A stretch of DNA of 64,000 nt. Origin: Catenibacterium sp. co_0103. GTDB lineage: Bacteria > Bacillota_I > Bacilli_A > Erysipelotrichales > Coprobacillaceae. The stretch's first letter is position 1. Each line of letters opens with the position of its first letter. The notes beneath the pieces are model-generated. The model was not told the DNA's origin. It searched no databases and saw only the letters and a list, made by a program, of their open reading frames with translations. The stretch is taken from NCBI RefSeq assembly GCF_004168205.1, contig NZ_RCYB01000003.1:3197-67196 (forward strand). Reading direction: 5' to 3'. This document shows positions 9,223 to 61,279 of this stretch, piece by piece. Position numbers and translations under genes: made by a program.

Positions 9223-10254
9223 TCAACGGTTGCCGTCGCGCTCGCGTTCTGCGGGCGGCGCGGTCTGCTCCATCGCCTTAGACGCCTCCTTGGCGTTTTT
9301 CGCCTCTTCCTTGAGGGAGACGGGGGACTCGATGGCCTTCTCGTGGCGGCGCTCCTCCCTGTACAGCTCGTAGGCCGGTTCTAGGATTGCCTCCCTCCTC
9401 ACGTCTATGAGCTGCGAGTAGAACTCGCGCCTCACATCGCTGATGCAAGGGGTATCCTCGATGAGGCGGTGGATGGCGGCGAAATCCAGCTCACGCATGA
9501 TGCCTCCGAGCACCGCACGTGCCTTCGCGCCTACATCGGATAGCAGGAACTCGTGATAGGCGACCTTGTTCTTACCGATGCGGAGAGCGGCACGGGGAAA
9601 ATCAAGCACTCTCTTGACAAGACTGTCCCTATCCTTGATGAAGTCAGCCATTGCTGCCTCGTTGAGTGCCGGGTAGAGGCTCGAACCGCAATCGTAGATG
9701 GGTGCCAAGTCGATTATCTCGTTCCTGCCCTTGTCGAGGATGTACCCCCAGTTACCGGCGTGCCGGTCGAAGTTTCCGATGAGGGAATCGACGGCGAACA
9801 TCTGCCAATACCGCTCCTCTGCGGCCTCCCTTATGCCTTCGAGGGAATCGTGTTCCGAGAAGATGCCGAGGAGGTTGCCGAGTATTGGCGTTCTGCCTCC
9901 TGCCGTGGAGCTTCCCAGAAACGAGTTCTCAAGTTTCTTGAACTCCACGAGAGTCACATTCTCCGCGTCCGGGCGGGACTCGATGAAGTCGCGGCAGGCT
10001 ACGACGGACCTTCCGTCGTATGTCCCCATCACCGTGTGTTGCGTCGGCAGACCGGCGAGGGCGTAGATGTGCGAGCCGAGGTACTCCGATACCGGCGTGC
10101 TGGTGTAGCTGGCTTGCAACGGCTTGTGCTCATCCGATTCGAGCTTCTGTCCGAACTTCAACATGTACACGTCGCCATCGTATATGATTTTCCTCTTGAA
10201 GTCGGCACCCTCGTAGCTGTTGACGAGAACCTTGCAACCCGTGAAATCAATCAT
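9223..10254 (-). CDS. HipA/CtkA-like protein kinase with C-terminal tag
   Basis: 343 residues starting MIDFTGCKVLVNSYEG; GGAGG is 7 nt upstream of the ATG at 10254. Kinase landmarks are VYMLKFG (ATP-binding Lys, about 31-37), SEYLGSHIYALAG (C-helix Glu), DSLIGNFDRHAGNWGYI (catalytic loop, HipA type) and PIYDCGSSL (DFG equivalent). The short length and lack of a HipA N-domain recall CtkA-type kinases. The C-terminus carries VSLKEEAKNAKEASKAME and a 14-residue tail ending GNR, the shared tag. It overlaps the upstream small gene by 8 nt. It may be a toxin-like kinase delivered to recipients; delivery is inferred. Confidence 0.8.
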   Translation of the reverse strand: MIDFTGCKVLVNSYEGADFKRKIIYDGDVYMLKFGQKLESDEHKPLQASYTSTPVSEYLGSHIYALAGLPTQHTVMGTYDGRSVVACRDFIESRPDAENVTLVEFKKLENSFLGSSTAGGRTPILGNLLGIFSEHDSLEGIREAAEERYWQMFAVDSLIGNFDRHAGNWGYILDKGRNEIIDLAPIYDCGSSLYPALNEAAMADFIKDRDSLVKRVLDFPRAALRIGKNKVAYHEFLLSDVGAKARAVLGGIMRELDFAAIHRLIEDTPCISDVRREFYSQLIDVRREAILEPAYELYREERRHEKAIESPVSLKEEAKNAKEASKAMEQTAPPAERERDGNR

Positions 10255-10474
10255 GCCCATGCCTCCATCCGTACTGCACGTAGTACCAGCGTACCCATGC
10301 GTCATTCTCCTCGCTGACGCTCCGCGCCGATGCCTGCACCTCGTTGAGGTAGCAGTCGAGGTTCATCACCTCGTCGCTCTCCCAAGCGTCCAGCAACTCG
10401 TTTATCGCGAGTTCGAGGTCGTATGGGACCTCGAACGGCAGTTCGTCGGGTCTCAATATACCAGTCGTGTCCAT
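10247..10474 (-). CDS. Small acidic partner of the HipA-like kinase
   Basis: 75 residues starting MDTTGILRPDELPFEV; AAAGGAGGAACGGTCGC precedes the ATG. It is acidic, with two helices (LELAINELLDAWESDE, LDCYLNEVQASAR), and ends WRHGHD. It has no HTH, so it is not a HipB. Its position directly before and overlapping the kinase gene makes it a candidate antitoxin or chaperone, by analogy with other toxin pairs. Confidence 0.6.
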   Translation of the reverse strand: MDTTGILRPDELPFEVPYDLELAINELLDAWESDEVMNLDCYLNEVQASARSVSEENDAWVRWYYVQYGWRHGHD

Positions 10475-10504
10475 GCGACCGTTCCTCCTTTCACATAGTT
10501 ATAT

Positions 10505-10520
10505 ATCATACTATTATACT
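10505..10520 (-). promoter_or_regulatory. Promoter of the hipA unit
   Basis: On the minus strand CGTAGTATAATAGTATGA, with TATAAT at 10513-10518. The core GTAGTATAATAGTA is identical to the one before the vapD unit (24640-24660). Confidence 0.55.
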
Positions 10521-10580
10521 ACGATACTCTCAGATTCTCAACCCTGCGCCGTGGTCGGAGCCGCGAATCGAGACGGTGGG

Positions 10581-19139: not shown

Positions 19140-20411
19140 ATGACCATCATCAAACAGGGAGGGGTGAGCAGCAAATCCCATCAGCGAAACCTCCGAGCCT
19201 ACATAAACGATGACAAGAAGGTGCTCCTGCGCGATTCCCAGAACATGGAGGAGTGCAAGGACTTGAAGCGGTGGGCGAGTTACATGGAGCGCACCCGCAA
19301 GACTTTCGGGCATGATAAGGCCGCCCGTCGCATCCGCGATAGGAAGACCGGTGAGTTGAAGGAGGCCAAGAACACAGTGCTGTTCCATCAAATCGTGGCC
19401 TTTCTTCCCGACGAGTGCGACCTAAACGGCGGCAAGCTCACGCCGGAGGACTGCATGAGATATGCGAGGGATTACGTCGGCACCTATTACCCGAACCAAG
19501 AGGTGGTCTTCGCCCTTCACAACGAGTATTGCAAGGAGGACAAGACCCATCGCTATGCGGTCCATATCGTCATAAACCGCAGCGACCTCTCAACCGGGAA
19601 GCGATTGGATGAGGGTAGGGGCAAGGAGGCGAAGGTTCGCCGTGCCTCCCGCATCCGCAAGATGGACAAGGCATGGGGCTTGAAGCAGGTGGAGCGCGAC
19701 GAGCGCAATTCCTCCGTCCATAAGAAGCAGCCGTCGAAGGTGGAGAAGGAGATAGAGGGGCGCGGTGGGGAGTCCTACAAGATGAACCTGCGCGAGCTGT
19801 GCCGCCTCGCAGCTGACAGGGCCGAGAACATCTACGAGTATCGTGAGATGCTTGAGGGCTGGGGCGTTGACACCCAGTTTCGCAAGGGCAGGCTCTATGT
19901 CACCGACACCGACAACTCCAAATATTCCTTCTCCCTCGCGAAGCTCGATGCCGACCTGAACGCGAACGGCCTTGAGGACCGCTTCTTGCAGAACGTGGAG
20001 GCGGACATCGAGGCCAAGGGCGCGGAAATCGCCGAGGCCCGTGCAGCCGTCGAGGCCGAGCGCCAGCGCGTCACCGGCATCCGCGATGCCTACCTAGAGG
20101 AGATGAGGAAGACCTACCTCGATTACCGCAAGAAGGCGCATGGCTTGGAGGGCACCGCCCTCGCCGCGTTCCCGAAGCTCGAACTCAAGCGCCCGCCCAA
20201 GGAGGTCGTGGACGACCCCGAGGTGAAGCGACTGTGGCTCGCGTACCGTCGCGGTGCCGACGAGTTGCGCGTCGAGATGGCCTCCGAGGTCCCCTATGCA
20301 CGCAAGCCCAAGAAGGGCGGCGGTACGAGCGGGTCCGGTAGCCAGCCGCGCCGCGAGGCCCCGTCCATGGGTAAGGATGAGCGCGGGCATGAGCGAACGG
20401 ACGTGCGCTAA
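19140..20411 (+). CDS. MobP-type relaxase
   Basis: 423 residues starting MTIIKQGGVSSKSHQR; GGAGGTAGAGCC precedes the ATG. The relaxase core is at residues 1-175: an early Tyr, NTVLFHQIVAFLPDE, and the metal-binding HRYAVHIVINRSDLSTGKRL. A C-terminal half with MNLRELCRLAADRAENIYEY and a long coiled coil follows. It nicks at oriT and pilots the strand through the VirD4/T4SS channel. It ends GHERTDVR; terminal Arg after an acidic/polar stretch resembles the tagged cargo proteins, although the helical tag motif itself is absent. It sits 14 nt after the helicase remnant. Confidence 0.85.
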   Translation: MTIIKQGGVSSKSHQRNLRAYINDDKKVLLRDSQNMEECKDLKRWASYMERTRKTFGHDKAARRIRDRKTGELKEAKNTVLFHQIVAFLPDECDLNGGKLTPEDCMRYARDYVGTYYPNQEVVFALHNEYCKEDKTHRYAVHIVINRSDLSTGKRLDEGRGKEAKVRRASRIRKMDKAWGLKQVERDERNSSVHKKQPSKVEKEIEGRGGESYKMNLRELCRLAADRAENIYEYREMLEGWGVDTQFRKGRLYVTDTDNSKYSFSLAKLDADLNANGLEDRFLQNVEADIEAKGAEIAEARAAVEAERQRVTGIRDAYLEEMRKTYLDYRKKAHGLEGTALAAFPKLELKRPPKEVVDDPEVKRLWLAYRRGADELRVEMASEVPYARKPKKGGGTSGSGSQPRREAPSMGKDERGHERTDVR

Positions 20412-20928: not shown

Positions 20929-21136
20929 GGAGCAGGCGACGGAGAAGTGGGTCGTGGAGGTGCGCCGCGCCCACGCATTGGAGCACCGACCGGGCAACTG
21001 GTGTTGCGTGGCCCAATGTGATGACGGCCAGACCGCCATCACCGTGGCCGATGCCTTGCAGAACTTCATGCGAACCGGTCTCATAGGCGATGATTTCCAC
21101 ACCCGCACCAGACTGGTGGGCGAGAAGGGGGCGTGA
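20921..21136 (+). CDS. Hypothetical protein
   Basis: 71 residues starting MSKEQATEKWVVEVRR; GGAGG lies 6 nt upstream of the ATG at 20921, inside the end of the previous gene. It contains NWCCVAQCDDGQTAITVADA. No membrane segment; no family recognised. The next gene starts 4 nt after its stop, so 20767-21746 looks like one coupled unit. Confidence 0.55.
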   Translation: MSKEQATEKWVVEVRRAHALEHRPGNWCCVAQCDDGQTAITVADALQNFMRTGLIGDDFHTRTRLVGEKGA

Positions 21137-21140
21137 CGGC

Positions 21141-21746
21141 ATGGCATATAGCGCGAAGAACGTCAAGGAATCTCTAGGGCAAGGGGAGGATATGGAACGC
21201 GATGACGAGCGCGTCGAGACGCACATCAGCGGAGTCAGGAACCTCAGCGAGGAGGCGCGTGAGATGCGTGCCGCAGGCCGCAAGCTGGTTGGCGAGAACG
21301 AGGAGAAGGCCGATGACCTCAGCGATTACCGAAGGCTCTCCGGTTCCGTGAAGAAGCTCAAGGAGAGCGTGGATGCCCAGAGGGCCGAGGTCAATCAGGC
21401 CGTGAAGAAGATGGACCAGACGCTCTATGAGATGCGCAATCTGGTTGATAGGGTCGAGGAGCTGTACAACAGCACCAAGGACGAGACCCATTCCGCAGAG
21501 CAGGCCGCGCTCAACGGCGTGAACAAAGCGCAGGAGAAAGCGCAGGAGATAACCCTTCGCAACATAGACGAGGCGACGCAGCGCAGTAAGAAGGCCATCG
21601 ACACGATGGTCTTGGAGTCGAAGCGGCGTATCGAGCGCCTTGCGATGGTCACCCTGCCGGACCGCATGTTCCATTTCCTCAAGTGGACGGCGCTCATGCT
21701 CGTGCTGTTCATCTTGGTCCACATCGTCTGGCAGATGTTCTCGTAA
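21141..21746 (+). CDS. Coiled-coil protein with C-terminal TM and internal tag-like helix
   Basis: 201 residues starting MAYSAKNVKESLGQGE. Residues about 33-50 (RNLSEEAREMRAAGRKLV) match the C-terminal tag helix of the minus-strand cargo proteins. A long coiled coil (about 60-170: VKKLKESVDAQRAEVNQAVK and on) is followed by a C-terminal TM (WTALMLVLFILVHIVWQMF). The tail-anchored layout puts the coiled coil and tag-like helix in the cytoplasm. It might gather tagged proteins or partner the relaxosome at the membrane; both are inferences. Confidence 0.6.
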   Translation: MAYSAKNVKESLGQGEDMERDDERVETHISGVRNLSEEAREMRAAGRKLVGENEEKADDLSDYRRLSGSVKKLKESVDAQRAEVNQAVKKMDQTLYEMRNLVDRVEELYNSTKDETHSAEQAALNGVNKAQEKAQEITLRNIDEATQRSKKAIDTMVLESKRRIERLAMVTLPDRMFHFLKWTALMLVLFILVHIVWQMFS

Positions 21747-23769: not shown

Positions 23770-24228
23770 TTATCGTTCGTTATTCTTTACCGGTGCTTCT
23801 CGATTTTGCCCGGTGTTATTCTCTAATGCTCTTGCTGCTTTCCTCATGGCCTTCATCTCAGATTGAAGGGTTGCATGAGGTTCAGGCTCATCTGGAAGTT
23901 CCACCTCATCATTGATATGGTCAAGGTGCTCAAGGACATCATGGCGCTTGCCGATTTCGGTGAGGGTTGCAGCTTGGGCGCATTCCCTGAACCATGGGAA
24001 CGTCGCTTGCAGTCTCTCCAAAACCGAGAATGCGTCGGCATAGGACATTCCATGGATAGATTCGTATCCCGAATACTGGGAATGCTCGAATCCGTTGGCC
24101 TCCATGAAAGCCTTGATTTTCGACCATGCGTTGTTGTAACTCGTGGTGCTACCAGAAGGAGATGGATATAACTCCTCTAGCTTCTCGTTATCCAAATCGA
24201 AATTGAATGCCTTGCGTTTGTGCGACAT
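23770..24228 (-). CDS. vapD: VapD-like endoribonuclease with C-terminal tag
   Basis: 152 residues starting MSHKRKAFNFDLDNEK. Residues 5-105 match VapD, a Cas2-like (ferredoxin fold) mRNA interferase: KAFNFDLD strand with Asp, NAWSKIKAFMEANGFEHSQY, SGYESIHGMSYADAFSVLER and LTEIGKRHDVLEHL. VapD proteins are ~95 residues; here an extra 50 residues end in ATLQSEMKAMRKAARALE and a 16-residue tail ending NNER, the shared tag. This suggests a small toxin adapted for T4SS export (inference). The upstream gene may encode a partner. Confidence 0.8.
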   Translation of the reverse strand: MSHKRKAFNFDLDNEKLEELYPSPSGSTTSYNNAWSKIKAFMEANGFEHSQYSGYESIHGMSYADAFSVLERLQATFPWFRECAQAATLTEIGKRHDVLEHLDHINDEVELPDEPEPHATLQSEMKAMRKAARALENNTGQNREAPVKNNER

Positions 24229-24682: not shown

Positions 24683-25735
24683 CTACCGCGCGGAGACCGC
24701 GATTTCAGGCGCTTTGGCCTGTTCATCATGGCTCTTCGCCGCGTCCTTCATGGCTGTGACTTCGCCCTTGAGGGACACCTTCTCGGGTGCACGTTCCACG
24801 TCGCGGTCGCGGCGCTTCTCCAAGACATCGTTGTAGCGCCCGATGATGAGGGTGCCCGCCTTATCGGCCTTCGCCGCCGCCTTGAACAGGTATGATGGGT
24901 CGTCTTCCAGCGCGTGCATCCACGATTGCAGGTAGGAGACGTGGTTCTCGTAATGCTCGCCCTCGTAGTCGGTGTTCTGGATGCCGAGGTCTGCGGAGAG
25001 GAAAAGGGAGCCGAGTTCGGCCACAAGCTCCTCCTGCGCATACTCGGGGCTTCCGAAGTCAGTGTTGCAGCCGCGATTGAGGGCGGAGGGGTGTCCGGTC
25101 GAATGGGTCATCTCGTGCAGGAGTACGCGAGTGAACGTCTCATCCGATAGGAAGGTCTCGCGCGGGGCGATGAGGATGCGGTCGGAGCCGGGGGCGTAAC
25201 CGGCGCTCCCCTGATAGCGCATGGATTCCACGATAGGGCACCGGGAGGAGAGGATGAGGTCGTCCGCGATAGCGGCGGTGCGGTCGCTCACATGCTCCGG
25301 TGCCGGTGGGGCGGGGATGCCCTCAATCTCGCTGGCGTTGAAGACGTTCCAATAGCCCACGCAGCGCAGGTAGTGGCCGGTGACCTCCTTCTCACCCGTG
25401 TCCTTGTTCTCCTCCTTGATGGAGAACTCGCGCCATTTCTCGATGAGCGCGGCCTTGGCCCCCTTCTTGAGGTGCCAGCCGCTATCGCGAATCTGGTTGA
25501 AGGTGCACCAACGGTTGTCCGTGAACCCGCGCATGTAGCCCACGAAACCGAGATGGAGGCGGTTGCCGCCCTGATACACCGTGCCGGATACCGGGTTGTG
25601 GGGACTGAGGGAGGGGATGTAGGGTTCCGACCAATGGAGTCCGTCGCGTTTCATGTCCTCGATAATCTTCTCGACCACAAGCGCACGCTGTTTCTCCACG
25701 ATTTCAAGCGACTTCGATTTCTTCTGCTCTTTCAT
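24683..25735 (-). CDS. ardC: ArdC-type antirestriction protein with C-terminal tag
   Basis: 350 residues starting MKEQKKSKSLEIVEKQ; GAAAGGACTGAA precedes the ATG at 25735. The N-terminal ssDNA-binding domain (MKRDGLHWSEPYIPSLS, then NPVSGTVYQGGNRLHL) and the C-terminal zincin (LLHEMTHSTGHPSALNR, with EELVAELGSLFL supplying the third ligand) are the two ArdC parts. ArdC of IncW plasmids protects incoming DNA and is known to enter the recipient. The C-terminus has VSLKGEVTAMKDAAKSHD and a 13-residue tail ending SAR: the shared tag on the protein with the best precedent for export. Confidence 0.9.
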   Translation of the reverse strand: MKEQKKSKSLEIVEKQRALVVEKIIEDMKRDGLHWSEPYIPSLSPHNPVSGTVYQGGNRLHLGFVGYMRGFTDNRWCTFNQIRDSGWHLKKGAKAALIEKWREFSIKEENKDTGEKEVTGHYLRCVGYWNVFNASEIEGIPAPPAPEHVSDRTAAIADDLILSSRCPIVESMRYQGSAGYAPGSDRILIAPRETFLSDETFTRVLLHEMTHSTGHPSALNRGCNTDFGSPEYAQEELVAELGSLFLSADLGIQNTDYEGEHYENHVSYLQSWMHALEDDPSYLFKAAAKADKAGTLIIGRYNDVLEKRRDRDVERAPEKVSLKGEVTAMKDAAKSHDEQAKAPEIAVSAR

Positions 25736-25817
25736 TTCAGTCCTTTCCGCGTCAGCCGATGGCATCATTATATCAACGCGCGTGGCGGGCCACCTGACGC
25801 CGATTTTCGGTGGTTGA

Positions 25818-25856
25818 AGAAAAAACGACCCCACAGAATCGTTTCTGCGGGGTCTT
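25818..25856 (-). terminator. Terminator after the sortase gene
   Basis: Reads AAGACCCCGCAGA...TCTGTGGGGTCGTTTTTTC on the minus strand. Near-copy of the terminator at 9155-9192. Confidence 0.8.
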
Positions 25857-25912
25857 GGGAGGATGGTGTCGAGTTCAGCCCCCGGCAACATGGCAAACCG
25901 CCTGGAACGGTC

Positions 25913-36515: not shown

Positions 36516-36821
36516 CTAACGGCTCCTGCGCTTGTCGTCCTTTTCCTCGACTTCATCCTCGGCATCCACATGCGCGGTCAACGCGGCAGCCGCCGCGCGG
36601 GCGCGGGTCGATTCCCCGTGGATGGAGACCGGGAGCTCTTGCACCGCACTGGACACCACGCGTCCATGCGAGGTCACCTGAACCGCCTCCCGTAGGACGG
36701 CACAGCCATCTTCATACTCGTCGGCATCGTCATGCGAGGGTGCCTGCACGTCGAGGAGCGATTGGGTGACGGAGACGGTCATGTCATCCGCGTCGAGATA
36801 GGTGTCGCGTTCAAGTCCCAT
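36516..36821 (-). CDS. Small tagged protein
   Basis: 101 residues starting MGLERDTYLDADDMTV; AGGAGGGATGCCAG precedes the ATG. Acidic N-terminal 60 residues with no known fold, then VSIHGESTRARAAAAALT and a 19-residue tail ending RRSR, a divergent copy of the shared tag. With such a short body, it is close to a tag with a small passenger. Confidence 0.6.
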   Translation of the reverse strand: MGLERDTYLDADDMTVSVTQSLLDVQAPSHDDADEYEDGCAVLREAVQVTSHGRVVSSAVQELPVSIHGESTRARAAAAALTAHVDAEDEVEEKDDKRRSR

Positions 36822-39150: not shown

Positions 39151-39159
39151 CGGTGCCTC

Positions 39160-40182: not shown

Positions 40183-40185
40183 GTG

Positions 40186-43925: not shown

Positions 43926-43974
43926 ATGGCCTCCTTCCTTTGTGGTCTGATAGTTTCCAATATGTATAGTTGGG

Positions 43975-44048: not shown

Positions 44049-44055
44049 TTATTCT

Positions 44056-45545: not shown

Positions 45546-46124
45546 CTACACGATGGAGTGGTCGTCGAGTGCCGGTGAGCCGGTGTCGCGTCCCTCTGCC
45601 AGCTTCTCGGAGGCGGCACGTGATGCCTGAGCCTCCCCCTTGAGGGTGACGCGGCCATCCTCCGAGCGGGCTTCCTCACGGCGCTGTCCCGTGCGGATTG
45701 CGATGACCTCCTCGATGCCGCTGCCGGGTTTGCTGACCTCGGTGAAGTAGTCGGCTACGCGGGACATCTCATCGGCTGAGAGGTCGCGATTCTCTCCGGT
45801 CTCGAAGTCGAACCCGACGGCCACGAGGTCGCCGCAGAGGATGGAGTACAGTTCTCCCTCCTTGACCGGTGAACTGTAATCCATCATGGAGAGGTACCCG
45901 GCCTCTTCCATGCCCTTCGTCGCGTACACCGCGCGGTTGGGCGGGCAGGTGAACAGGCCCTCCTCATTGACGTAGAGGCTGGTGCCCTCGCCGAAGATGA
46001 CATCGAACGACTCGATGTTCCCACCGACAAGGCGTTGCAGGTCGTGTAACGTGGAACCCGTCTCATCGACCTCGATGTCGATTTCGACCGGGTTCCCGTT
46101 TGTCGGGATGAGCATGCCCTTCAT
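45546..46124 (-). CDS. DUF3846-domain tagged protein
   Basis: 192 residues starting MKGMLIPTNGNPVEID; GGAGGATTGTGAC precedes the ATG at 46124. Residues 1-135 match DUF3846: LHDLQRLVGGNIESFDVIFG, LYVNEEGLFTCPPNRAVYAT and GDLVAVGFDFETGENRDL. DUF3846 proteins occur on phages and ICEs, function unknown. C-terminus VTLKGEAQASRAASEKLA plus a 16-residue tail ending HSIV (shared tag, no Arg). Confidence 0.75.
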   Translation of the reverse strand: MKGMLIPTNGNPVEIDIEVDETGSTLHDLQRLVGGNIESFDVIFGEGTSLYVNEEGLFTCPPNRAVYATKGMEEAGYLSMMDYSSPVKEGELYSILCGDLVAVGFDFETGENRDLSADEMSRVADYFTEVSKPGSGIEEVIAIRTGQRREEARSEDGRVTLKGEAQASRAASEKLAEGRDTGSPALDDHSIV

Positions 46125-46140
46125 GTCACAATCCTCCTTC

Positions 46141-46850
46141 CTAGCGGGCGTCCTGCCCACGATTTGAATGGTTTCCGTTATCGGCCATCGCGGCGGAAGC
46201 GCCACGGGCCGTCTCCACCTCGCCCTTGAGGGACACGGCTTTCTCGGGAGATTGGTGGGCTTTCACCTTCTCGTACTCGGCCCGTGCCTTCTCCATGGCG
46301 GGGCGGAGCAGGTCGCCGGGGACGCCTTGATAAGTGCAGAACCGCTCTGCGGCTGATGGGTCGGGGAAAAGATGGGGAACCTCGAAGCGATTCGCTTCCT
46401 GATTCCCGTGAGCGCGTCGCGCCATGCCTCCCCGTTGACGGATTTGAAGTCGGCGAGCGACGAGTAGCCGTAACGGGACAGCAGGCCGTTCAGGTAATCT
46501 TCGGGAAGATGGTAGTCCGCCAGCTCATCGCTCTCAAGGTCGTAACTGCCGGTGAGGACGGCCCAACCGCCGTCCTCAAAGGGCCATCCTATGACGTAAT
46601 CCGTCCTCGTGCCGTCCTGCGCATGGAAGCCGAAGCCGTGGTCGGTGAAGGTTCCGCACTCCCTGAAAGTCGGTTCACCCTCGCCGATGGCATTCATCAG
46701 CTCAGTGTACCAGCCGCCCAATTCCGCCTCATCCTCGATGAACTCGCGCACCTTGTCCGCGAGGGCTTCACCGGCCCCACTCGATACATAGGGGTCGTTC
46801 TCGACTGCCTGAACAAGACGCATGAGCGCGGTCGCGTCGTTGAAATCCAT
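46141..46850 (-). pseudogene. Tagged protein gene split by a frameshift
   Basis: The N-terminal part (MDFNDATALMRLVQAVENDP..., start 46850) runs to about 46400 (DFKSVNGEAWRDALTGIRKR) and then continues out of frame to a stop at 46263. The adjacent frame over 46141-46425 holds NRFEVPHLFPDPSAAERFCT and then VSLKGEVETARGASAAMA with a 13-residue tail ending QDAR, which is the shared tag. One base gained or lost between about 46370 and 46410 joins them into a ~236-residue protein like its neighbours. As read, the main product loses its tag. Confidence 0.65.
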
Positions 46851-46865: not shown

Positions 46866-47945
46866 CTAACGGTCGCCATCGGCATCGAAAAGAGTTTCCG
46901 ATGCTTTCTGGGCGTTATCGACCTCATGTTCGAGGTCGATGGTGGAAGCCCCATGCGCAGCCAACGCGGCAGATGACTCGCGTGCCTCCTTTGCGGCGGC
47001 TTTCAGGCTCACCGGGCTGGCCTTGGCGCTCTCATCGCCCTTCTGCGTCCATCCGGCGATGGTGAGGGAGGTGAAGAGGGTGGTAGTCGCTGCGCGGTCC
47101 GAGATGCGCACAGCGTCCTTCAACCCGTTGAGGACATCTGCGGGGACTTCATAGGGAACACCCGCGACATCATGCACGGTCGCGCTCGCGGCACCCGGAG
47201 CGACCTCGGCGCTCATGATGGCGGATGATGTGAACTCGGCGGTTTCGAGAAGCGGGTCGATGACTGGTGCCTCGTACTCCACTGCGGGGCAGCCGAATGC
47301 AAGCTCCATATAGCGCGGTGAGGGGCAGAGGGCGGGGTTCTCCCAGAGTTCACGCATCGCTGCGTTCACTGATTCCCAAGAGCCGTCGTATTCCTTGTCG
47401 TTAATGGTGAACGGCTCGCCGACCCACGCGTCCTCGATGACATCCAGTGCCTCCTCACCGGCATCGGTGAGCTGGCGGACCTCGACATCGACCCCGCCGT
47501 CGTGATGGTAACCGTGGATGAACAGGCTGCCGTTCTCATCCCAGACCTTACCAATTTCGCAGTCCTTGAACACGGAGTCGTGACCGCCCATCATGTCATC
47601 GAAATCCCTGTACGCGGTCATGCCATGGCGCGTGCCATCCCAGCGACCGATGGAGCCTCGCGCAATGATGCGGTTACCGCCGAGTGGATTGTCGTATGAG
47701 GACAGCGGGCTATCGGAGCCGTCTAGGAACGCCTTCAATCCGGCAAGTTCCTCGGAGCGGTCGATGTCCATCATGTTCATCGCGTTCTCGAATATCTCCT
47801 CCTCGGTATAGCTATCAAGAACCTCTTCCACGGTGATGCCTTCGCGGCTCGTGATGTCCTCGATGGAAATCTCGCTGCCCTCGTCGCCGTAATACACGCC
47901 CTCATCGAAGACGATGCGCTCTTTCGGTGTCTTATCCATATCCAT
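46866..47945 (-). CDS. Tagged protein with two tandem tag copies
   Basis: 359 residues starting MDMDKTPKERIVFDEG. Several acidic domains of unknown kind (DSYTEEEIFENAMNMMDIDR, WESVNAAMRELWENPALCPS, VPADVLNGLKDAVRISDRAA). Near the end is VSLKAAAKEARESSAALA; 12 residues later comes a second version, IDLEHEVDNAQKASETLF, then DADGDR. This is the only gene in the window with the motif duplicated at its C-terminus. Confidence 0.7.
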   Translation of the reverse strand: MDMDKTPKERIVFDEGVYYGDEGSEISIEDITSREGITVEEVLDSYTEEEIFENAMNMMDIDRSEELAGLKAFLDGSDSPLSSYDNPLGGNRIIARGSIGRWDGTRHGMTAYRDFDDMMGGHDSVFKDCEIGKVWDENGSLFIHGYHHDGGVDVEVRQLTDAGEEALDVIEDAWVGEPFTINDKEYDGSWESVNAAMRELWENPALCPSPRYMELAFGCPAVEYEAPVIDPLLETAEFTSSAIMSAEVAPGAASATVHDVAGVPYEVPADVLNGLKDAVRISDRAATTTLFTSLTIAGWTQKGDESAKASPVSLKAAAKEARESSAALAAHGASTIDLEHEVDNAQKASETLFDADGDR

Positions 47946-48030: not shown

Positions 48031-49308
48031 CTAATGCTCAGCGTCCCCATCGGCACGCTCATCCTCACGCTCGGGCGTCTGCCCGTCATGACTGTCCTGT
48101 TCGAGCTTGCCCGATGCCTCGCGGCTCTCTTGGGCAGCCTCGGAGACGGTCGGGACCTCGTAGCCCTTATCTGGCATGAATTCCTTCCAGAACTCGTTGA
48201 ACGCGGTCTCGTAGCCCTTCTCGTTGACCGTGCGGACCGCCTCGGCGCTCATGGCGTAGGGATTCGGGAAATCGTAACCGGATTCCTTGATTGCCTCGAA
48301 GTCGCCACTCAGCTCACCATCTTCAAGAATCTCATCGTTTGAACCGAGGGCATCGTAGAGTTGCGAATCCATGGCATCCTGAATCGCGGTCTGCGCCTCG
48401 GTGGCGAAGTCCTCGATGTCCATGTTGTTGTCATTGAAGTCGATGGTGATGCCGTCGAACACATCGTCGTAAACCTCATCTGCCAGCGCGTACACGCCTT
48501 CGGCTGCGAGGCCTTCGAGAGCGGCGTACTTGGCGATGTCCTCCTGATGACTGTACATGTCCTGCGTGAAGCACTCGTATTGGGCCATCTGGGTCATCTT
48601 GATGAGGTCGCCCTTGCAACCTTCGAGAAGGCCTTGGAAATCCGCCTCCTCAAGCCACTCGTAGTTATCGGGAAGCCACTTGAGCAGGTCGTGGGTGTAG
48701 AGGTCCACCGCACCATCGGCGATTTCACTGAAGGCATCTCCGATATTGCCAGTGTAGTCCGTGATTCGGTCGCCGTACTCGCCGAGGTTGAGGCTCGCCT
48801 GCAAGTCCTCGATGGAGGTGAATCCCTCTGGCACTGGCGGGTGCTCGAACTCATGCTTTGCCTTGCGCTCCGCCTGCACGCGCTCGACCTCCTCCTTTAC
48901 CTCATCAAGCTCGTTGTCAAGGGTCTCCGCGATGTCGGAGATTTCAGAGGTCATGAGCTGCATATCGTTCTTGAGCCAGTCGAGGGTCTTGCGGCAGGAC
49001 TCCTAGGCGCGAATGGCCTGAGACGGCTTCTCGAATCCCATCTCATCGGCGAAGTCGTCGATATGACGGCCATCGACCGCGAGCGCGTCGCTCGCCAGCG
49101 CGGCGAACACATCCGTCGCAGTCGGCTGGCCGTGGACATCAGGGTTGGACTGGTACGTGGTGGTGAAGGACTCGATGCCGGGCTTGCTGAACTCGCAGGT
49201 GTACTTGCGGTGCTGGGTCGAGAAGTCACCCGGACCCTTGCTGATGATATTGAAGTCGAATTGGGAGAGGAGGTCGGCGACCCCCTGTGCGTCGTTGTAG
49301 TTTGGCAT
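48031..49308 (-). pseudogene. Tagged protein gene interrupted by an in-frame TAG
   Basis: The frame from 49308 (MPNYNDAQGVADLLSQFDFN) runs to a single TAG at 49003-49005 (QAIRA*), then continues open in the same frame (ESCRKTLDWLKND, then MQLMTSEISDIAETL) to 48031. The text around the stop reads like IRA-Y-ESCRKTLDWL, so TAG probably replaced a Tyr codon. The downstream part has coiled coils (about 112-150) and ends PTVSEAAQESREASGKLE plus 22 residues (tag without Arg). Restart at the ATG 48961-48963 could yield a 310-residue C-terminal product. Confidence 0.7.
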
Positions 49309-53321: not shown

Positions 53322-56087
53322 TTAGATAACTTTGCCGTCCTTCTTCTTGGAGCCGATTTTCAGCTCCTTTGTCTCGTTGGGGTTCGTGCTGAACAAGTCA
53401 TAGAGCACGTTGCCCGACGGGAACTTGCCGCGAATCGGCACTCGCGCGTTGCCCGCGATGAGCAGGCCGTCACCGGCCTCGGCGGACTCGTCGATGCACT
53501 CCTCCTCCTGCTCGGAGAGGTTCAGCAGCTCCACCCAACGCATGCGGTCGAGCGGGGACTGCTTGAGAAGCATGATGAAGTCGGCGTTGAGCACGATGTT
53601 CTGCGCGGCCTCGTTGTTGAGCATCGCCACCGCGTTCTGGGTGATGCCCGTCAGCAGCAGGCCGAACTTGCGCCCCTCGTTGGAGAAGCGGGAGAAGTAG
53701 TTGAGCACCGTCGGGTAGGCGAAGAGCGACTGCATCTCCTCGACGTAGAGCCACGTGCGGACGTTGCGCTTCGCGTTGAAGTACATGCGGTTTCGCACGG
53801 CCTCACAGACGTTGATGAGGGCGAAGACCAGCATGGAGTCCGGCAGGTCCTTCAAATTGAAGTCCACGATGCGGGTGTTGAAATCCACGTTGGACTGGCG
53901 GTTGAAGAAGTCCATGGACCCCTTGACGAAGCGCTCGTAACGTAGCGCGATGGTCTGCGCCTGATGCTCGGGCTGCTCAAGGGCGATGTCGTAGAAGTCC
54001 TGCAATGTCGGAGGGAGGCCGTCGCCGCGCTCCTCGGCACGCTGGAACGCAAGCTCCACGCAGCGCTGGATAATGGACTGGTCAACCTCGGAGAGGGACT
54101 GACCGGACTCGGCTGCGGAGGCACCCGCCTGCGCCAGCATCGCGTCGATTTTGAACGCGATTTGCTCGGTGCGGGGCATGTGCTCCACGGACACCGTGTC
54201 GAAGGGGTTCAGGAACGTGTCGGTGCCAACGCCGAAGTGGTAGGTGGTGCCGCCGTAGCGCTCGGCAATGGCCGTGTACTCACCGGCGCGGTCGATGACG
54301 TAAATCTCGTCCGTCGGGTTGGAGAAGATGGTGCCGGTCATCTCGGTCTTGGTGAACATACCCTTGCCCGAACCGGTCTTGCCGCAGACGAAGCCCATGG
54401 GGCTTGTCAGGCGCTTGCGATTGCACATGACGAGGTTGCGGGAGTGCTTGTTCTGGCCATAGTAGTTTCCACCGGCATCGTCAAGCTCCTGCGTCGCGAA
54501 GGGCACGAGGATGGCGACCTGCGCGGTGGTGAACATGCGGCTTATCTCGACGTGGTTGTGGCCGAGGGGCAGCACGGAGTTGAGGCCCCGGCGCTGCCGG
54601 TAGTCGTAGGTGTCCACCTCGATGGAGTTCTGGCGGGCGGTTGAGATGATGCGCATGACCTGAGCGTCGAGCTGCTGCTTGCTCTCCGCGTAAGTGTAGA
54701 TGAGGCCGGTGAAGACGTAGAGGCGCTGGTTCTTGTTCTGCAAGTGGTCAAGAACGTCCTCGGTCTCCTCCTTGGAATACTTGAGTTCCTGCGGCAGGAT
54801 GGAGAAGTCGTAGCCCTTGTTCACGGCGCTGCGCTGCTCCTCGATTATCTCCTTGTCAATCCACGCGCTGCGGGTGCGGACGAAGTTGATGGCCTTGGAC
54901 TTGTCCATGGGCTGCACGAACCATGTGACCGCCATGGGGAGCGGCAGGTCAACGATGTCGGCAAGTGCCCGGTCGGAAAGCTCGGAGCCGAACTTCTTCA
55001 TGACAAGGACCTGACCGTACACGCCGTTGTCCAGCTTGAAGCAGTCGTTGAACATGCCGTCCGGTCGCCAGTCAATTTGCGTCGGGGCGATGCAGTCCTT
55101 GGTGGTCTGCACGCGCTTGGCGGAGATGTCCTTCTGGTAGTCGAAGTAGAACGGCTTGTAGGGGTTCAGGAGCGAGTGGATGACAGATAATCGCTGGGTG
55201 CCGTTCATCAGGTGGGCCTTGGACCCCATGGAGTTTAGGATGCGGCTGGATTCCGTCTCGATGCGGGAGAGCTGGCGTGCCGCGTCGTCCGCCGTCTCGG
55301 CGGTGACCGAGTAGGTCAGGTAGCGGTTGCGACGTATGTTGGACACGCCCTCGCGAACCTTGTCGTTCAGGATGTCGTTGAACACCTGCGCGTCATTGCG
55401 GGCGGCGTCGTTTCCCTGACGGGCGACATCGAAGAACTTCCGGTTGCCGACCTCCTCCTTGAGCAGCGGCGTGTTGATGACGCTCATCTGGACCAGCGTG
55501 TTCGCGCCGAACTGGTCGTACAGGCGCGTGAGTGCGGAGAACATGGATTTCTGCTGCTCGTCGCGCACGGAGTGATAGCTGGTGTCAGAGAAGGAAATGG
55601 AGGAGGAGAACAGACCCTCCTCGACCTCGCAGATGCCGTCTTGGTACATGCGGTTGTAGCCGATGTAGTTCACCACGTCCTTCGCGCCCTCGCGTTTGCG
55701 GCGGGCATCCGCCGTCTTCGAGGTTAGTTCCTTGTCGCGGTCCTTGAGCTGGGACTTCACGGACGTGTAGCTCTTGCGGGCCTCTTTCTCGGCCAGCTTC
55801 GCCTCCTTCTTGAGGCGTGCTACCTCCCGCTTTGCCTGCCTCTTCTCCTTGCGGGACATCTTCTTGCCAGCAACGGTGGGAGCACCGGCGAAGGAGCCGA
55901 GCGCCGCCACATCGACCGAGCCGTTATCGGCGTCCATTGGGCGGTCGTTGCCGAAGCCCTCGCCGGAAGTGTGGACGAAATCTTCGATGTCGAAGCCTGC
56001 GTCGGTGTCACGCGATGACATGTCCGGCTCGGGGGGAGTAGGATTCGATTCCCTTGAGGCTGCATTGCTTTCGATAGTGTTTTCCAT
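53322..56087 (-). CDS. virB4: VirB4-like T4SS ATPase
   Basis: 921 residues starting MENTIESNAASRESNP; AAAGGAAGGGTCT precedes the ATG. An N-terminal coiled, charged region (REVARLKKEAKLAEKEARKS), the VirB4 N-domain, Walker A in CGKTGSGKGMF (about residue 567), YVIDRAGEYTAIAERYGG and Walker B in WLYVEEMQSLF (about 780), GITQNAVAML. It energises channel assembly and substrate transport. The first 80 nt overlap the end of prgI. Confidence 0.95.
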   Translation of the reverse strand: MENTIESNAASRESNPTPPEPDMSSRDTDAGFDIEDFVHTSGEGFGNDRPMDADNGSVDVAALGSFAGAPTVAGKKMSRKEKRQAKREVARLKKEAKLAEKEARKSYTSVKSQLKDRDKELTSKTADARRKREGAKDVVNYIGYNRMYQDGICEVEEGLFSSSISFSDTSYHSVRDEQQKSMFSALTRLYDQFGANTLVQMSVINTPLLKEEVGNRKFFDVARQGNDAARNDAQVFNDILNDKVREGVSNIRRNRYLTYSVTAETADDAARQLSRIETESSRILNSMGSKAHLMNGTQRLSVIHSLLNPYKPFYFDYQKDISAKRVQTTKDCIAPTQIDWRPDGMFNDCFKLDNGVYGQVLVMKKFGSELSDRALADIVDLPLPMAVTWFVQPMDKSKAINFVRTRSAWIDKEIIEEQRSAVNKGYDFSILPQELKYSKEETEDVLDHLQNKNQRLYVFTGLIYTYAESKQQLDAQVMRIISTARQNSIEVDTYDYRQRRGLNSVLPLGHNHVEISRMFTTAQVAILVPFATQELDDAGGNYYGQNKHSRNLVMCNRKRLTSPMGFVCGKTGSGKGMFTKTEMTGTIFSNPTDEIYVIDRAGEYTAIAERYGGTTYHFGVGTDTFLNPFDTVSVEHMPRTEQIAFKIDAMLAQAGASAAESGQSLSEVDQSIIQRCVELAFQRAEERGDGLPPTLQDFYDIALEQPEHQAQTIALRYERFVKGSMDFFNRQSNVDFNTRIVDFNLKDLPDSMLVFALINVCEAVRNRMYFNAKRNVRTWLYVEEMQSLFAYPTVLNYFSRFSNEGRKFGLLLTGITQNAVAMLNNEAAQNIVLNADFIMLLKQSPLDRMRWVELLNLSEQEEECIDESAEAGDGLLIAGNARVPIRGKFPSGNVLYDLFSTNPNETKELKIGSKKKDGKVI

Positions 56088-57066: not shown

Positions 57067-59049
57067 TCACCGCTTCTCTCCGGTCGCGCTGTCATCATGG
57101 TCGTCATACGGTTCGCATCCGCCCTCCAAGTAGCGCTTGAAGTCGAAGGGCTTGTCGTGCAAGCGTTTGGGGTTGCGCTTGTCCACGATGTAGCAGTAGC
57201 GCTTGTGGGTGTGCGGGTCGAACTTGTCGTCCATGAGCGGGTTGGTACCCGCGATGAGCAGGATGGCCTTCCTGCGGCTCATCTTGCCGATTTCAGCGGC
57301 GTCGATGAGGTCGCGGCCTTGGATTTGCAGGTTCTTGCCAGCGCTTGAGGACTGACCTGTGGATTCGTTGTAGGTCATCTGGTGGATGGTCTGCTTGCCA
57401 ATCATCTCGGCAATCTCCTTGTTAGTGGAGTTCGACTTGCCGCCGAGGAACAGGGTGGAGTCGCAGCAATCCACGATGGTCTGCGCCTTCTTGTCGTACT
57501 TCGATTCGAGCTGGGACATGGATTGCAGGATGATGGTGATGCCGATGTTGCGGGAGCGCGTGACGGCGATGGTCTCCTCAATCTGCGGGATGGTCCCGAT
57601 GTTCGCGAACTCGTCGAAGATGAAGTGGACGGGAGTCGGCAGCTTGCCGCCGTAGTCGGTGAGTGCTTTGCGGCAGAGCTGGTCGATGCACTGCCACATC
57701 ATGATGGCGAACAGGAAGGAGAGCGTCTTGTCGGTATCCGAGAGGATGCCGAAGACCGCCACCTTCGCGTCCGGGTCGCCCAGCGTGTCAAGCTCCATCT
57801 CATCGTATTCGAGCAGGCTGCGCACACCGGCGGTGGCGATGGGGGCGAGGCGCACGTTGCAGGAGATTATGATGGACTTGAGGGTCTTGCCCGCCGCGAC
57901 CTTGAAGTTCTTATAGTTCATCAGCGCGAAGTCCTCATCGGGCGACAGACCGCCGCAGTCGGCGGGACGCACGCCGTCGGAGTTGCGCTTGAGGTTGGTC
58001 GGCTCCCATGACCAGTCCGAGTCTCCGGTCGCGTTGCCCGTCCCGAAGTTGCGGGAGAGGCCGGAGATTCCCATCGACGGCGCGGGAGCGCCGCCCTCGT
58101 TCGGGATGTAGCGCTTGCCCTCCTCGATTTGTAGGAAGAGCAGGTCGAGCGGGGACTTGAAGTTCTCGTCGTTCTCGCGGGCCTCGGCCATGGAGAGCAG
58201 CGTGAGTAGGCTCGACAGGTTGTAGTCCTCCGGCGGGAACCAGTCGCGCAGGAGCGCGATGAGCGAGGTGTACAGCATCTTCTCGGAGTTCTCCCAGAAG
58301 GGGTCTCCCGCCTTGCCGTCGCCGTTGGTGTTCATGATGTAGCAGTTGACGAACGACAGGATGTCGGTGTCCGTCTTCACGTACTTGAGCGGGTTGTAGT
58401 GCATGGACTCATCGAGGTTGATGGTGTTGAACGACTTCACCTTGTACCCGTTGTCCGTGAACAGGAACCCCGCGTCCTTGAGGAGCGTGCCCTTGGGGTC
58501 GGTGATGAAATAGCTCGTGTTGAGCTGGCAGATGTTCGGAGTGACATAGTTGAACGTCTTGCCGGAGCCGGAGCCGCCCACGACCAGCACGTTCAGGTTG
58601 CGGTCGAGTTCGGGGTTGAACTTGGGGCGGTGCAGGGCGAGGCCGAAGTTCTGGGTGAAGATGAGGTTGTTGTCCTCCGTGGTGAGGTCGCGAAACTGCT
58701 TGCCCTCCTTGAGCGTGCCCCAGCGTGCCGAACCGCTCTCCTCACCGGCGCGGAAGTTGCCCACGAAGGCGACGTAGCGCAGCCAGAAGAGCCAGACGAG
58801 GACGCACATGGTCAGGCCCGCCAGCATGGCGTTGGGTGACATGTCGATGTGCGCCGGGTTCTCGGCGATGAGCGGCCACATGGCGGCGAAGCCGTCGCCC
58901 CAATGCTCGAAGAACTGGCCCCCGAACGAGGCTACGGCCTCCCAATAGCGGTTCCCGAGGTAGAAGCCCACACCTGAGAGCAGGGTGGTCACGAGGGCCG
59001 AGGTCGCGACTTTCTTGTTGATTTCAGGGTTTCCCTTGCCTTGAGCCAT
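57067..59049 (-). CDS. virD4: VirD4-type coupling protein
   Basis: 660 residues starting MAQGKGNPEINKKVAT; GGAAGGAGGGTCGCTT precedes the ATG. N-terminal TMs (about 14-35 and 75-100), Walker A VVGGSGSGKTFNYV (about 158), all-alpha insert at about 250-400 (SSLLTLLSMAEAREND, KSPLDLLFLQIEEGKRY), Walker B VHFIFDEFANIG (about 475) and the GITIILQSMSQLESKY motif. It selects the relaxase-DNA complex and protein substrates. Two separate genes encode look-alikes of the insert. Confidence 0.95.
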   Translation of the reverse strand: MAQGKGNPEINKKVATSALVTTLLSGVGFYLGNRYWEAVASFGGQFFEHWGDGFAAMWPLIAENPAHIDMSPNAMLAGLTMCVLVWLFWLRYVAFVGNFRAGEESGSARWGTLKEGKQFRDLTTEDNNLIFTQNFGLALHRPKFNPELDRNLNVLVVGGSGSGKTFNYVTPNICQLNTSYFITDPKGTLLKDAGFLFTDNGYKVKSFNTINLDESMHYNPLKYVKTDTDILSFVNCYIMNTNGDGKAGDPFWENSEKMLYTSLIALLRDWFPPEDYNLSSLLTLLSMAEARENDENFKSPLDLLFLQIEEGKRYIPNEGGAPAPSMGISGLSRNFGTGNATGDSDWSWEPTNLKRNSDGVRPADCGGLSPDEDFALMNYKNFKVAAGKTLKSIIISCNVRLAPIATAGVRSLLEYDEMELDTLGDPDAKVAVFGILSDTDKTLSFLFAIMMWQCIDQLCRKALTDYGGKLPTPVHFIFDEFANIGTIPQIEETIAVTRSRNIGITIILQSMSQLESKYDKKAQTIVDCCDSTLFLGGKSNSTNKEIAEMIGKQTIHQMTYNESTGQSSSAGKNLQIQGRDLIDAAEIGKMSRRKAILLIAGTNPLMDDKFDPHTHKRYCYIVDKRNPKRLHDKPFDFKRYLEGGCEPYDDHDDSATGEKR

Positions 59050-59064
59050 AAGCGACCCTCCTTC

Positions 59065-59604
59065 CTAACCCTCGCGTCCCGGCAGGGCACGGGAGAGCGA
59101 GACGGCGATGGAGGCGCGGGTGGTCGGTGCGGTGCCCTGTGCGAAGCGCTTGTAGCACCCGAGGCAGAAATCGTCCTCGGGTCGGATGCCGTTGGTGTCG
59201 CGGGGGCAGGTGCCGTCATTGCGCTCAAGTGCCGTCGGCTCCCAACTCATGGTGATGCCGTCCGCGCTGATGACGCGCTTGCAGCCCGACTCTATCTCGT
59301 AGAACAGGTCCCCGAGGTCTGTGACGGTGGAACCCGATGAGGAGGGACGCGCCGCGTCGAGGAGGGCCTTGAGGTTTCCGACTGTCCGCTGCTCCAATGA
59401 GCACCAGTCGCGCAGGTATCCGAGGCAGGCGTAGAGGAGCTGCCTCGCGCTCTTCTTGAAAGCCGCGTTCCCGTCGCACTCATCGCGCAGGACGCTGGCG
59501 CTTATCACCGCATCGGCGATGGCCTCGATGTCGCTGTCAGATTCCATGGCCTGCAAGGGGTTCGTCGCAAGGCGCTCCGGCAGATAATCGTTCATATGGG
59601 TCAT
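59065..59604 (-). CDS. Second stand-alone VirD4 insert-like protein
   Basis: 179 residues starting MTHMNDYLPERLATNP; GGGAGCCTGAT precedes the ATG. It matches the VirD4 insert in order: DIEAIADAVI, LLYACLGYLRDWCSLEQRTV (VirD4 LYTSLIALLRDWFPPEDYNL), DLFYEIESGCKRV (DLLFLQIEEGKRY), SWEPTALERNDGTCP (SWEPTNLKRNSDGVRP) and GIRPEDDFCLGCYKRF (GLSPDEDFALMNYKNF). No ATPase motifs. Located between virD4 and pcfB, it may regulate or extend substrate choice by the coupling protein. Confidence 0.75.
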   Translation of the reverse strand: MTHMNDYLPERLATNPLQAMESDSDIEAIADAVISASVLRDECDGNAAFKKSARQLLYACLGYLRDWCSLEQRTVGNLKALLDAARPSSSGSTVTDLGDLFYEIESGCKRVISADGITMSWEPTALERNDGTCPRDTNGIRPEDDFCLGCYKRFAQGTAPTTRASIAVSLSRALPGREG

Positions 59605-59617
59605 ATCAGGCTCCCTT

Positions 59618-61279
59618 CTAGCGCTCTTGCTGGAACTTGTCGGAGATGTCGCGGTCGGGGTAGTCGTTGGTCTGCGAGAGCTGCTTGCTCGCGGCGCGGC
59701 ACTCCTTGGCCTGAGAGTTCAGGTCGTACTTCTCGCGGCTACGGTCGGACTGCTCACGCACCATGGAAGGTGAAACCTCGGTGCCGTTCTGCTCGCGCTC
59801 GATGCGCAGCGTGTTCACCATAGTATCCATGCCATCATGGGACTCGATGCCTTGATTGATGTCGGGAGTCGAGCCGTTCATGTCGAGGGAACCATCGGTC
59901 ACCTGCGGTTCACGCGAGTCCTTGACGTTTTCCAACGACGCCCCATGACTTGGACCGTGGTCGAAGAACTCGATTCCCAGTTCCTCCGGTGCATGACCGG
60001 GAAAACGCGTCTCGACGGCCTTGATGACGTCCTGCTTGTGCTTCACATCCACAAGGAACCCCATCTTGCCGTCAGGACGGTCATACGTCTCGATGCCGTG
60101 CTCTTTAAGGTCGCCGCGCACCGCGTTGCAGATGAGGTTCAGGTCCTTCTGCGGGGGAACGACCTCGTGGGCGGTCTCATTAGCGGTCGGCTCCTTAGGC
60201 GTGTTCTTCTCGAACCAGTCGTGAGTCACATCGCACTTGTACCTGTCCCGGAGGGTCTTCGCTCCGACGGCCCAGTCCATCAGACCGTCCTTGTTTGGTC
60301 CACGGTCGAGGATTTCACCGTTCTCATCACGACGAGCTTCGTAGAACATCAACTCGCCATTCTTGCCTTCCGTGACACCGATGTCCTCCTTGGCAAGGAG
60401 TTCCTTGAAATCATCGAAATCGCGGCACTGTTCGCGGGCGTTGAGCACCTTGTCGCGTATACCCTCGGTGTGGTTATAGGTATCGTTTACGCGGTCATCA
60501 TATGTCTGCTCGGGAAAATCCGCTGCGCGAGACTCCTGTTCGATTATTCTTGCCTTGACCTGATAGGGTTCACCGACGCTTTCGACAATGAAGTCCTCGC
60601 CGGTTGCCTTTCCGACCATATCGGTAAGCTCATCGTGAGTGTAGCCGGAGAAGAACACCTCGGAGTCCATATCGAGGTCAGCGGTGTCCTGTTCTGAGAA
60701 CGTTCTGACTTCGACTTTATCTGGCGTATCGGTGAAGCGAATCGCCACGGGGATAAGCGTGACATCACGTAGATTAAGCTCTATGCCATCCACATTCGGC
60801 AAATCCGGTAGATTTTTGATGGGCTTAAGGCTTTTGAACACATCCTGCGTCACAGGTTTCCCATTTGCAATCAACTCGGAGATTTCCCCGCATTTGAGAT
60901 TGGTCATGACCTCGGAGAATTGCACGGTGCATTCCCGCACCTTTTGAAGGTCATCTTTGGCAAACTGGACATACCCATTGCCATTGTCATCGGTCATCGC
61001 TGCGGCATAAGTGCCGTTCTCGCGCACAACCTGTGCGAAATAGGCCGCATCGGTCGAGTTTCCAAATGGCATGCAGATATGCTCGCGAGAAGCCATGACC
61101 TCGGCCTTTATCGCGGCCTCTTCTTTCGACATGCCTTCTTCTTCGAGCTTCGCCTGTTGCCAATCGCGGATGGCTGACTTGAAATACTCATTTAGGATTA
61201 GGCCAATCGCTTTTTCACTGTATCTAGTGATGTTGCGAAGAAGCATATCGCCTACATCGTCTCCAAAATCTTGCGCCAT
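59618..61279 (-). CDS. PcfB/DUF3801-like protein with relaxase-like domain and tag
   Basis: 553 residues starting MAQDFGDDVGDMLLRN (ATG at 61279, GAAAGGA 8 nt upstream). N-terminal 130 residues resemble PcfB/DUF3801 (REHICMPFGNSTDAAYFAQV, YAAAMTDDNGNGYVQFAKDD), a relaxosome-coupling factor. The middle (GIRDKVLNAREQCRDFDDFK, then ELLAKEDIGVTEGKNGELMF) resembles the C-terminal domain of MobP relaxases. It ends YDLNSQAKECRAASKQLS plus 18 residues ending QQER (shared tag). First gene of the T4SS operon; probable -10 on the minus strand near 61352-61357. Confidence 0.7.
   Translation of the reverse strand: MAQDFGDDVGDMLLRNITRYSEKAIGLILNEYFKSAIRDWQQAKLEEEGMSKEEAAIKAEVMASREHICMPFGNSTDAAYFAQVVRENGTYAAAMTDDNGNGYVQFAKDDLQKVRECTVQFSEVMTNLKCGEISELIANGKPVTQDVFKSLKPIKNLPDLPNVDGIELNLRDVTLIPVAIRFTDTPDKVEVRTFSEQDTADLDMDSEVFFSGYTHDELTDMVGKATGEDFIVESVGEPYQVKARIIEQESRAADFPEQTYDDRVNDTYNHTEGIRDKVLNAREQCRDFDDFKELLAKEDIGVTEGKNGELMFYEARRDENGEILDRGPNKDGLMDWAVGAKTLRDRYKCDVTHDWFEKNTPKEPTANETAHEVVPPQKDLNLICNAVRGDLKEHGIETYDRPDGKMGFLVDVKHKQDVIKAVETRFPGHAPEELGIEFFDHGPSHGASLENVKDSREPQVTDGSLDMNGSTPDINQGIESHDGMDTMVNTLRIEREQNGTEVSPSMVREQSDRSREKYDLNSQAKECRAASKQLSQTNDYPDRDISDKFQQER

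Follow-up and report, generated by a model that had tools for sequence, protein, structure and literature searches.

Gene content of the conjugative element

We analysed a 64,000-nucleotide stretch of the genome of Catenibacterium sp. co_0103 (GCF_004168205.1, contig NZ_RCYB01000003.1, positions 3,197 to 67,196), hereafter the window. It carries a conjugative element that encodes a VirD4 of the CD1115 family, a VirB4 of the CD1110 family, and a relaxase. VirD4 scored 482 bits against NF045973 (cut-off 250) and VirB4 793 bits against NF045971 (cut-off 325), both families being typical of CD1115-type (Tn1549-like) conjugative systems. Fifteen minus-strand genes of the window end in a common module, in which an 18-residue core is followed by 12–30 residues and mostly by a terminal Arg; the core starts 30–48 residues ahead of the C-terminus. 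Genes are referred to below by their first position. The transfer genes and the cores of the fifteen carriers are located as follows:

57067..59049, minus strand, VirD4-like coupling protein of the CD1115 family (NF045973), the proposed receptor
53322..56087, minus strand, VirB4-like ATPase of the CD1110 family, without the module
19140..20411, plus strand, relaxase (PF03432), C-terminus without the module
9268..9321, minus strand, core VSLKEEAKNAKEASKAME of a HipA-like kinase (gene 9223-10305), ending GNR
23821..23874, minus strand, core ATLQSEMKAMRKAARALE of VapD (gene 23770-24228), ending NER
24725..24778, minus strand, core VSLKGEVTAMKDAAKSHD of ArdC with ArdcN and MPTase-PolyVal domains (gene 24683-25891), ending SAR
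35964..36017, minus strand, core ATLKGESEQMRESSAKLA of gene 35925-36419, ending NTR, with a tagged homologue in genome G002
36576..36629, minus strand, divergent weak core of gene 36516-36821 (101 aa), ending RSR
36882..36935, minus strand, core MSLKQAVRESREASAKLA of gene 36834-38351, ending DER
38413..38466, minus strand, core ITLGGEAQAMKAASAEMA of gene 38371-39150, ending DAR
39214..39267, minus strand, core ISLKAEAESMRRASQALS of gene 39160-40182, ending DLS
43092..43145, minus strand, core YRLESKAKEARDSSAKLA of a MuF_C protein (gene 43044-43994), ending EDR
44104..44157, minus strand, core GSVHEAAKESREASAQLG of gene 44056-45504, ending ELE
45597..45650, minus strand, core VTLKGEAQASRAASEKLA of a DUF3846 protein (gene 45546-46205), ending SIV
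46183..46236, minus strand, core VSLKGEVETARGASAAMA of gene 46141-46425, ending DAR
46959..47012, minus strand, core VSLKAAAKEARESSAALA of gene 46866-47945, ending GDR after a 30-residue tail
48100..48153, minus strand, core PTVSEAAQESREASGKLE of gene 48031-48963, ending AEH
59675..59728, minus strand, core YDLNSQAKECRAASKQLS of the protein in the PcfB slot (gene 59618-61285), ending QER

A common C-terminal module on unrelated proteins

An earlier note, made from the sequence of the window alone, had listed fifteen proteins with a common C-terminal motif, and all of them were recovered at their minus-strand positions. With a leave-one-out 18-column matrix, the best site of each protein was its C-terminal core (15/15), and none of 2000 shuffles of any protein reached the score of the real site. 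The margin was thin for 24683 (17.3 bits, shuffle maximum 16.0), 36516 (20.4 and 19.0), and 59618 (20.0 and 19.4); 36516, which lacks the S/T-L-K start, is the weakest carrier. The count of 11 proteins ending in Arg was correct, the carriers with another final residue being 39160, 44056, 45546, and 48031. The tail length had been given as 12–22 residues and required extension to 30 because of 46866.

Comparison of the bodies and of the tails gave different results. When the last 45 residues were removed, one of the 105 pairs was similar at E<=0.1 (39160 and 46866, E 0.018), whereas with the tails alone 28 pairs were similar at E<=0.01, and 14 carriers took part in them. As judged by sequence comparison, the carrier bodies are mutually unrelated and the tails related; the suggestion that no fold is common to the bodies was examined at this level. 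Pfam domains were found on several carriers (HipA_C, ArdcN with MPTase-PolyVal, MuF_C, DUF3846), none of them reaching the tail; the NCBIfam match of 23770 to VapD was below its cut-off and also left the tail uncovered. Domains of the polyvalent-protein set exceeded the curated cut-off in two of the 15 carriers, ArdC (ArdcN, MPTase-PolyVal) and the MuF_C protein, and domain family searches detected none in the other 13. A C-terminal sequence shared by otherwise unrelated bodies is what is found for translocation signals of type IV secretion systems (T4SSs).

Among 28 further genes of the window, only three had a site that exceeded 8.0 bits: 51402 (16.7 bits, residue 49), 6979 (26.1 bits, residue 207), and 21090 (19.1 bits, residue 50). 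In none of these was the site C-terminal; tag-like helices also occur at places other than C-termini. In the 351-residue product of 6979-8034 (plus strand), the site lies in an Ala-rich internal stretch, PTLAEEAANARAAAAALA, and composition may account for its score. The third of these genes follows the relaxase:

21090..21746, plus strand, protein whose C-terminal segment is hydrophobic, with the tag-like stretch RNLSEEAREMRAAGRKLV near its N-terminus (matrix match)

The orthologue from G002 has this N-terminal stretch as well, and so, by eye, does the one from G001 (both genomes are introduced below).

At the DNA level, the cores had a mean identity of 0.50, with 0.47 at third positions of shared residues. 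Recent duplication of the tags was ruled out by the former value.

Conservation and specificity of the module

Relatives of VirD4 with 75–81% identity came from Pseudoramibacter porci, Baileyella intestinalis, and one Streptococcus sp. In G001 and G002, two genomes holding such relatives, the orthologues of VapD, the DUF3846 protein, the MuF_C protein, 35925, and the PcfB-slot protein were tagged at more than 13 bits by the matrix, and those of ArdC, 44056, and 48031 by eye. No tag was found on the orthologues of VirB4, VirD4, 49423, the topoisomerase, 35266, 24244, and the relaxase. A profile search of both genomes returned eight matches at E<=10, every one of them within the region of the element; rows of the profile itself came from five of these proteins.

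The VapD family allowed the ending to be followed over larger distances. Of 66 homologues, 46 were at least 130 aa long and 20 were shorter. A C-terminal profile match at a lenient threshold (5.5–36 bits) was present in 39 of the 46 long proteins, 38 of which terminate in Arg, and in 8 of the 20 shorter ones. Among the seven long VapDs without a match, one bears the name of an uncultured Mobiluncus, and several seem by eye to be truncated or frame-shifted. Both the spacing to the C-terminus and the final Arg were kept across widely diverged VapDs. In six tagged VapDs the core starts with P-S-L/F, a form intermediate between that of the window and that of the sister elements described below.

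The window profile was specific at E<=0.001: it matched one of 391 genomes of the class of G001, one of 198 of the order of G002, and one of 398 of the phylum of G002 (the latter two samples may overlap), and each time the matching genome was the source genome. Equal occurrence of the motif on chromosomal proteins elsewhere had been proposed as an observation that would overturn the idea of a tag; because only the source genomes matched, such occurrence was not seen in the 390, 197, and 397 other genomes, and the reading of the module as a tag withstood this comparison.

A related tag in sister elements

PcfB, which is encoded beside VirD4 in related CD1115-type elements, ends in a comparable motif, K-P-S-I-R-x-x-L. 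In an unbiased C-terminal comparison, endings common to PcfB and cargo were detected in three of four other CD1115-type records: a Vescimonas record and a gut contig had KPSIRxQL, and a Streptococcus suis plasmid had PSTLxxI. The all-against-all comparison of C-termini in the element of G001 gave no excess (one pair above threshold, 0.6 expected), although the profile search does find tags there. In L024, and for the top pairs of L021, paralogous proteins accounted for the excess.

Next, 35 related elements were scored with a matrix built from 15 PcfB tails alone and applied to 1138 open reading frames (ORFs) other than PcfB. Twenty-four matches scored 14 bits or higher, and 21 of these lay 10–30 residues before the chain end, a position in which 1.67 were expected (shuffled ORFs gave 0.05); the binomial p of 8.6e-22 is optimistic because some of the 35 elements are close kin. 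The chain end [EDQ][RLVI], which was not used in the matrix, occurred in 17 of 26 carriers and in 60 of 1112 other ORFs (p 4e-15), the final residue of the 26 carriers being Arg in 10, Leu in 7, and Val in 4. A carrier scoring at least 12 bits was present in about 13 of the 35 elements, one doubtful match being left out.

Nineteen of 25 scanned carriers belonged to a Pfam family, 17 of them over the curated cut-off. The families were ArdA, ArdC-N, YodL, DUF4316, LPD15/18/25/34, DUF3846, DUF3848, DUF3849, SSB, SNF2-type helicases, and two MobA_MobL relaxases. Several carriers of L049 and L023 are large polyvalent proteins in which DUF4316 (PF14195) stands shortly ahead of the tag.

The co-occurrence of the related tag with the coupling protein was followed in 196 genomes of the class of G001, for which T4SS content was read and of which 67 had a CD1115 VirD4. 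At E<=0.005, a threshold chosen after inspection of the list, the tag was found in nine genomes, and all nine had the CD1115 VirD4 (9/9 vs 67/196, p 4e-5). One of these matches (G187, L032) resembles ribosomal protein S21 by eye, which leaves eight of eight; its P-S-V-R-x-x-L stretch (related-tag profile E 7e-4) is probably a chance resemblance. Of the 23 genome matches in all, 12 lie in frames of 60 residues or more and have the motif 19–30 residues before the frame end. The remaining 11 comprised six with an unreadable frame end, the S21-like protein, and four short frames or motif-less proteins.

The PcfB slot and stand-alone all-alpha domains

Upstream of VirD4, where PcfB is found in sister elements, the window encodes a protein of 555 aa, with 59065 inserted between the two genes. 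Its tag core is predicted, with low confidence (pLDDT, a per-residue model confidence, of 56–60), to be an isolated helix at residues 522–538 in a disordered tail; the model of the whole protein (pLDDT 58.7) gave no trustworthy fold match. In a family of 120 homologues, the tag allele was YNLKSKADENRAASKQL in 108 and YDLNSQAKECRAASKQL in 7, and the end KFQQER was present in all 120. PcfB is a small protein just upstream of VirD4, and its C-terminal architecture matches that of the cargo tag; the slot protein of the window differs from the PcfB family in its length and in having no detectable PcfB profile match.

Two further genes of the window encode a domain of VirD4 on its own:

59065..59604, minus strand, stand-alone VirD4 all-alpha domain (E 2e-18 to VirD4 residues 212-403)
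42372..43043, minus strand, second stand-alone all-alpha-domain paralogue (45% identity to VirD4 residues 250-376, E 4e-19)

The homology covers the stretch between the Walker motifs, and the fold is that of the all-alpha domain of type IV coupling proteins; the position between the motifs was set by comparison with TrwB as given in PMC7434980. The same source reports that this domain recognises the cognate relaxosome and accessory proteins. In PcfC, VirD4, and Cagbeta the all-alpha domain belongs to the coupling protein, whereas here it forms small proteins of its own that lack the ATPase. Proteins 59065 and 42372 are candidate adaptors on the basis of this homology.

A putative docking and translocation signal

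C-terminal signals for T4SSs are known from VirE2 and VirD2 of Agrobacterium, from RalF and the E-block effectors of Legionella, and from the XVIPCD of bacteria-killing T4SSs. Like these, the window tag is terminal, sits on unrelated bodies, and is encoded together with a VirD4-type coupling protein. Unlike them, it combines an S/T-L-K...R-x-A-S core with an end Arg and occurs in elements of monoderm bacteria, a distinction drawn here without sequence comparison. Among open-access papers, within the terms used, we found neither a description of such a tag nor any account of function in the literature naming PcfB. In the accessible part of PMC12857230, neither PcfB nor “translocation signal” occurred.

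We consider that the shared ending probably acts as a docking and translocation signal for the CD1115-type coupling protein, by which establishment proteins would be delivered along with the DNA. The earlier note had proposed this from the window, and the proposal is now partly supported, by more than the window itself offers: the module appears to follow the T4SS lineage, and in related elements PcfB, anti-restriction proteins, and two MOBQ relaxases end in a comparable motif. The core would be a single exposed helix within a disordered tail, as predicted at low confidence. The VirD4 all-alpha domain, or its stand-alone copies as adaptors, may recognise this helix and the chain end (Arg in the window; Glu and then Leu, Val, or Arg in sister elements). 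ArdC, VapD, the MuF_C protein, and the kinase-like protein would in that case enter the recipient through the channel and protect or prime it.

Several results weigh against this interpretation. The relaxase of the window and its two orthologues are untagged, and the matrix detected the tag in two of three MOBQ relaxase hits from sister elements and in none of 14 non-MOBQ hits (the window relaxase and 13 others, one of the 14 being a fragment), so that 15 of 17 hits lacked it. The protein in the PcfB slot did not match PcfB (hhalign probability 0.1, from thin profiles with Neff, the effective number of sequences, of 1.5 and 2.4). The hydrophobic moment of the cores was unremarkable (one of 14 below 0.05) and did not support strong amphipathicity, which had been considered as a property of the cores. 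About 22 of the 35 related elements had no clear carrier at 12 bits. A tag-like stretch can arise by chance, as in the S21-like match of G187, and at the looser threshold of E<=0.05 the related tag occurred in 16 genomes, of which 12 had the CD1115 VirD4 and four did not; three of these four matches lie in frames of 28–39 residues and one in a protein without the P-S motif. The canonical matrix placed the window tags in its top three positions for 5 of 14 carriers (0.18 expected). Because this cross-recognition is partial, we only infer that the two tag types form one family, their common descent being unproven. Finally, a private key, in which each PcfB tail would best match the cargo of its own element, was rejected: two of 33 ranked top, with one expected. 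In this comparison, 14 of the 33 slots held nearest neighbours rather than detected PcfBs, and the row of the window was uninformative because its slot was filled by 59065, the nearest upstream gene. The code is accordingly common to different elements rather than private to each.

Other explanations of the ending have to be weighed against export. The tail could bind an element-encoded partner within the donor, such as a chaperone, PcfB, or the stand-alone all-alpha proteins, and build a donor-side complex. The slot protein is itself tagged and adjoins VirD4, the stand-alone proteins could be the partner, and the absence of a tag on the window relaxase agrees with such a role. We regard this explanation as unlikely, since the carriers in sister elements include ArdA, ArdC, SSB, and MOBQ relaxases, all expected to work in the recipient cell. 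Moreover, translocation of SSB is reported for an F system (PMC8406263, PMC11288057).

Two further explanations appeared less probable still. Dispersal of a C-terminal piece among neighbours by recombination, leaving a by-product of descent without common function, would suit the arrangement of many carriers in one array and the two main alleles of the slot family. We give it little credence, because the DNA identities of the cores indicate that they are old, spacing and final Arg hold over widely diverged VapDs, and a comparable ending recurs on other proteins in sister elements. A degradation or stability signal, read by a host protease adaptor and setting the dose of element proteins, would likewise be terminal, in a predicted disordered tail, and strongly conserved at its last residue, as is the Arg of tagged VapDs. 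Against it, the signal goes with the element rather than with its hosts (Streptococcus, Pseudoramibacter, and Baileyella among them) and is missing at E<=0.001 from the other genomes searched, and the last residue of sister-element carriers is mostly Arg, Leu, or Val; this explanation is, if anything, the most improbable of those considered.

If the ending is indeed a docking and translocation signal, a broader proposal can be made, which we offer tentatively and hold to be slightly less than an even chance. CD1115-type elements may inject a protein payload along with their DNA by a common C-terminal code, with PcfB, which bears this code too, as pilot or gatekeeper at VirD4; in the lineage of the window, the code would have spread to 15 proteins, and the receptor domain would have been freed as adaptors. 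The payload meant here consists of anti-restriction, DNA-protection, and host-control proteins, and of the relaxase in some elements.

To our knowledge, the non-DNA cargo of conjugative elements of Gram-positive gut bacteria is hardly known. A readable tag would provide a candidate list, as any protein with the ending becomes testable for delivery, and it also suggests a role for PcfB. Polyvalent proteins are treated as deployed at invasion in the accessible part of Iyer et al. (2017; PMC5512222), and domains of that set (ArdC-N, MPTase-PolyVal, MuF-C, YodL, LPD) are found on the tagged proteins described here. A word search of the same part did not find the phrases “C-terminal motif”, “C-terminus”, “secretion signal”, or “conserved motif”. 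For these proteins, a delivery signal would be the missing piece.

Other features of the window

A search of plasmid DNA with 36834-45504 gave no match, and IMG/VR yielded no VirD4 relatives. The gene at 62559-63752 is presumably an integrase; comparison of 61401-64000 with 1-24000 revealed no attachment-site repeats of at least 15 bases. Within 45546-46850 (minus strand), three frames overlap (45546-46205, 46141-46425, and 46263-46850), two of which are tag carriers. The gene at 27452-35218 (minus strand) encodes a 2588-residue product that we take to be a surface protein, near a gene at 25913-26701 that we assume to be sortase-like; the C-terminal segment of the large product is hydrophobic.

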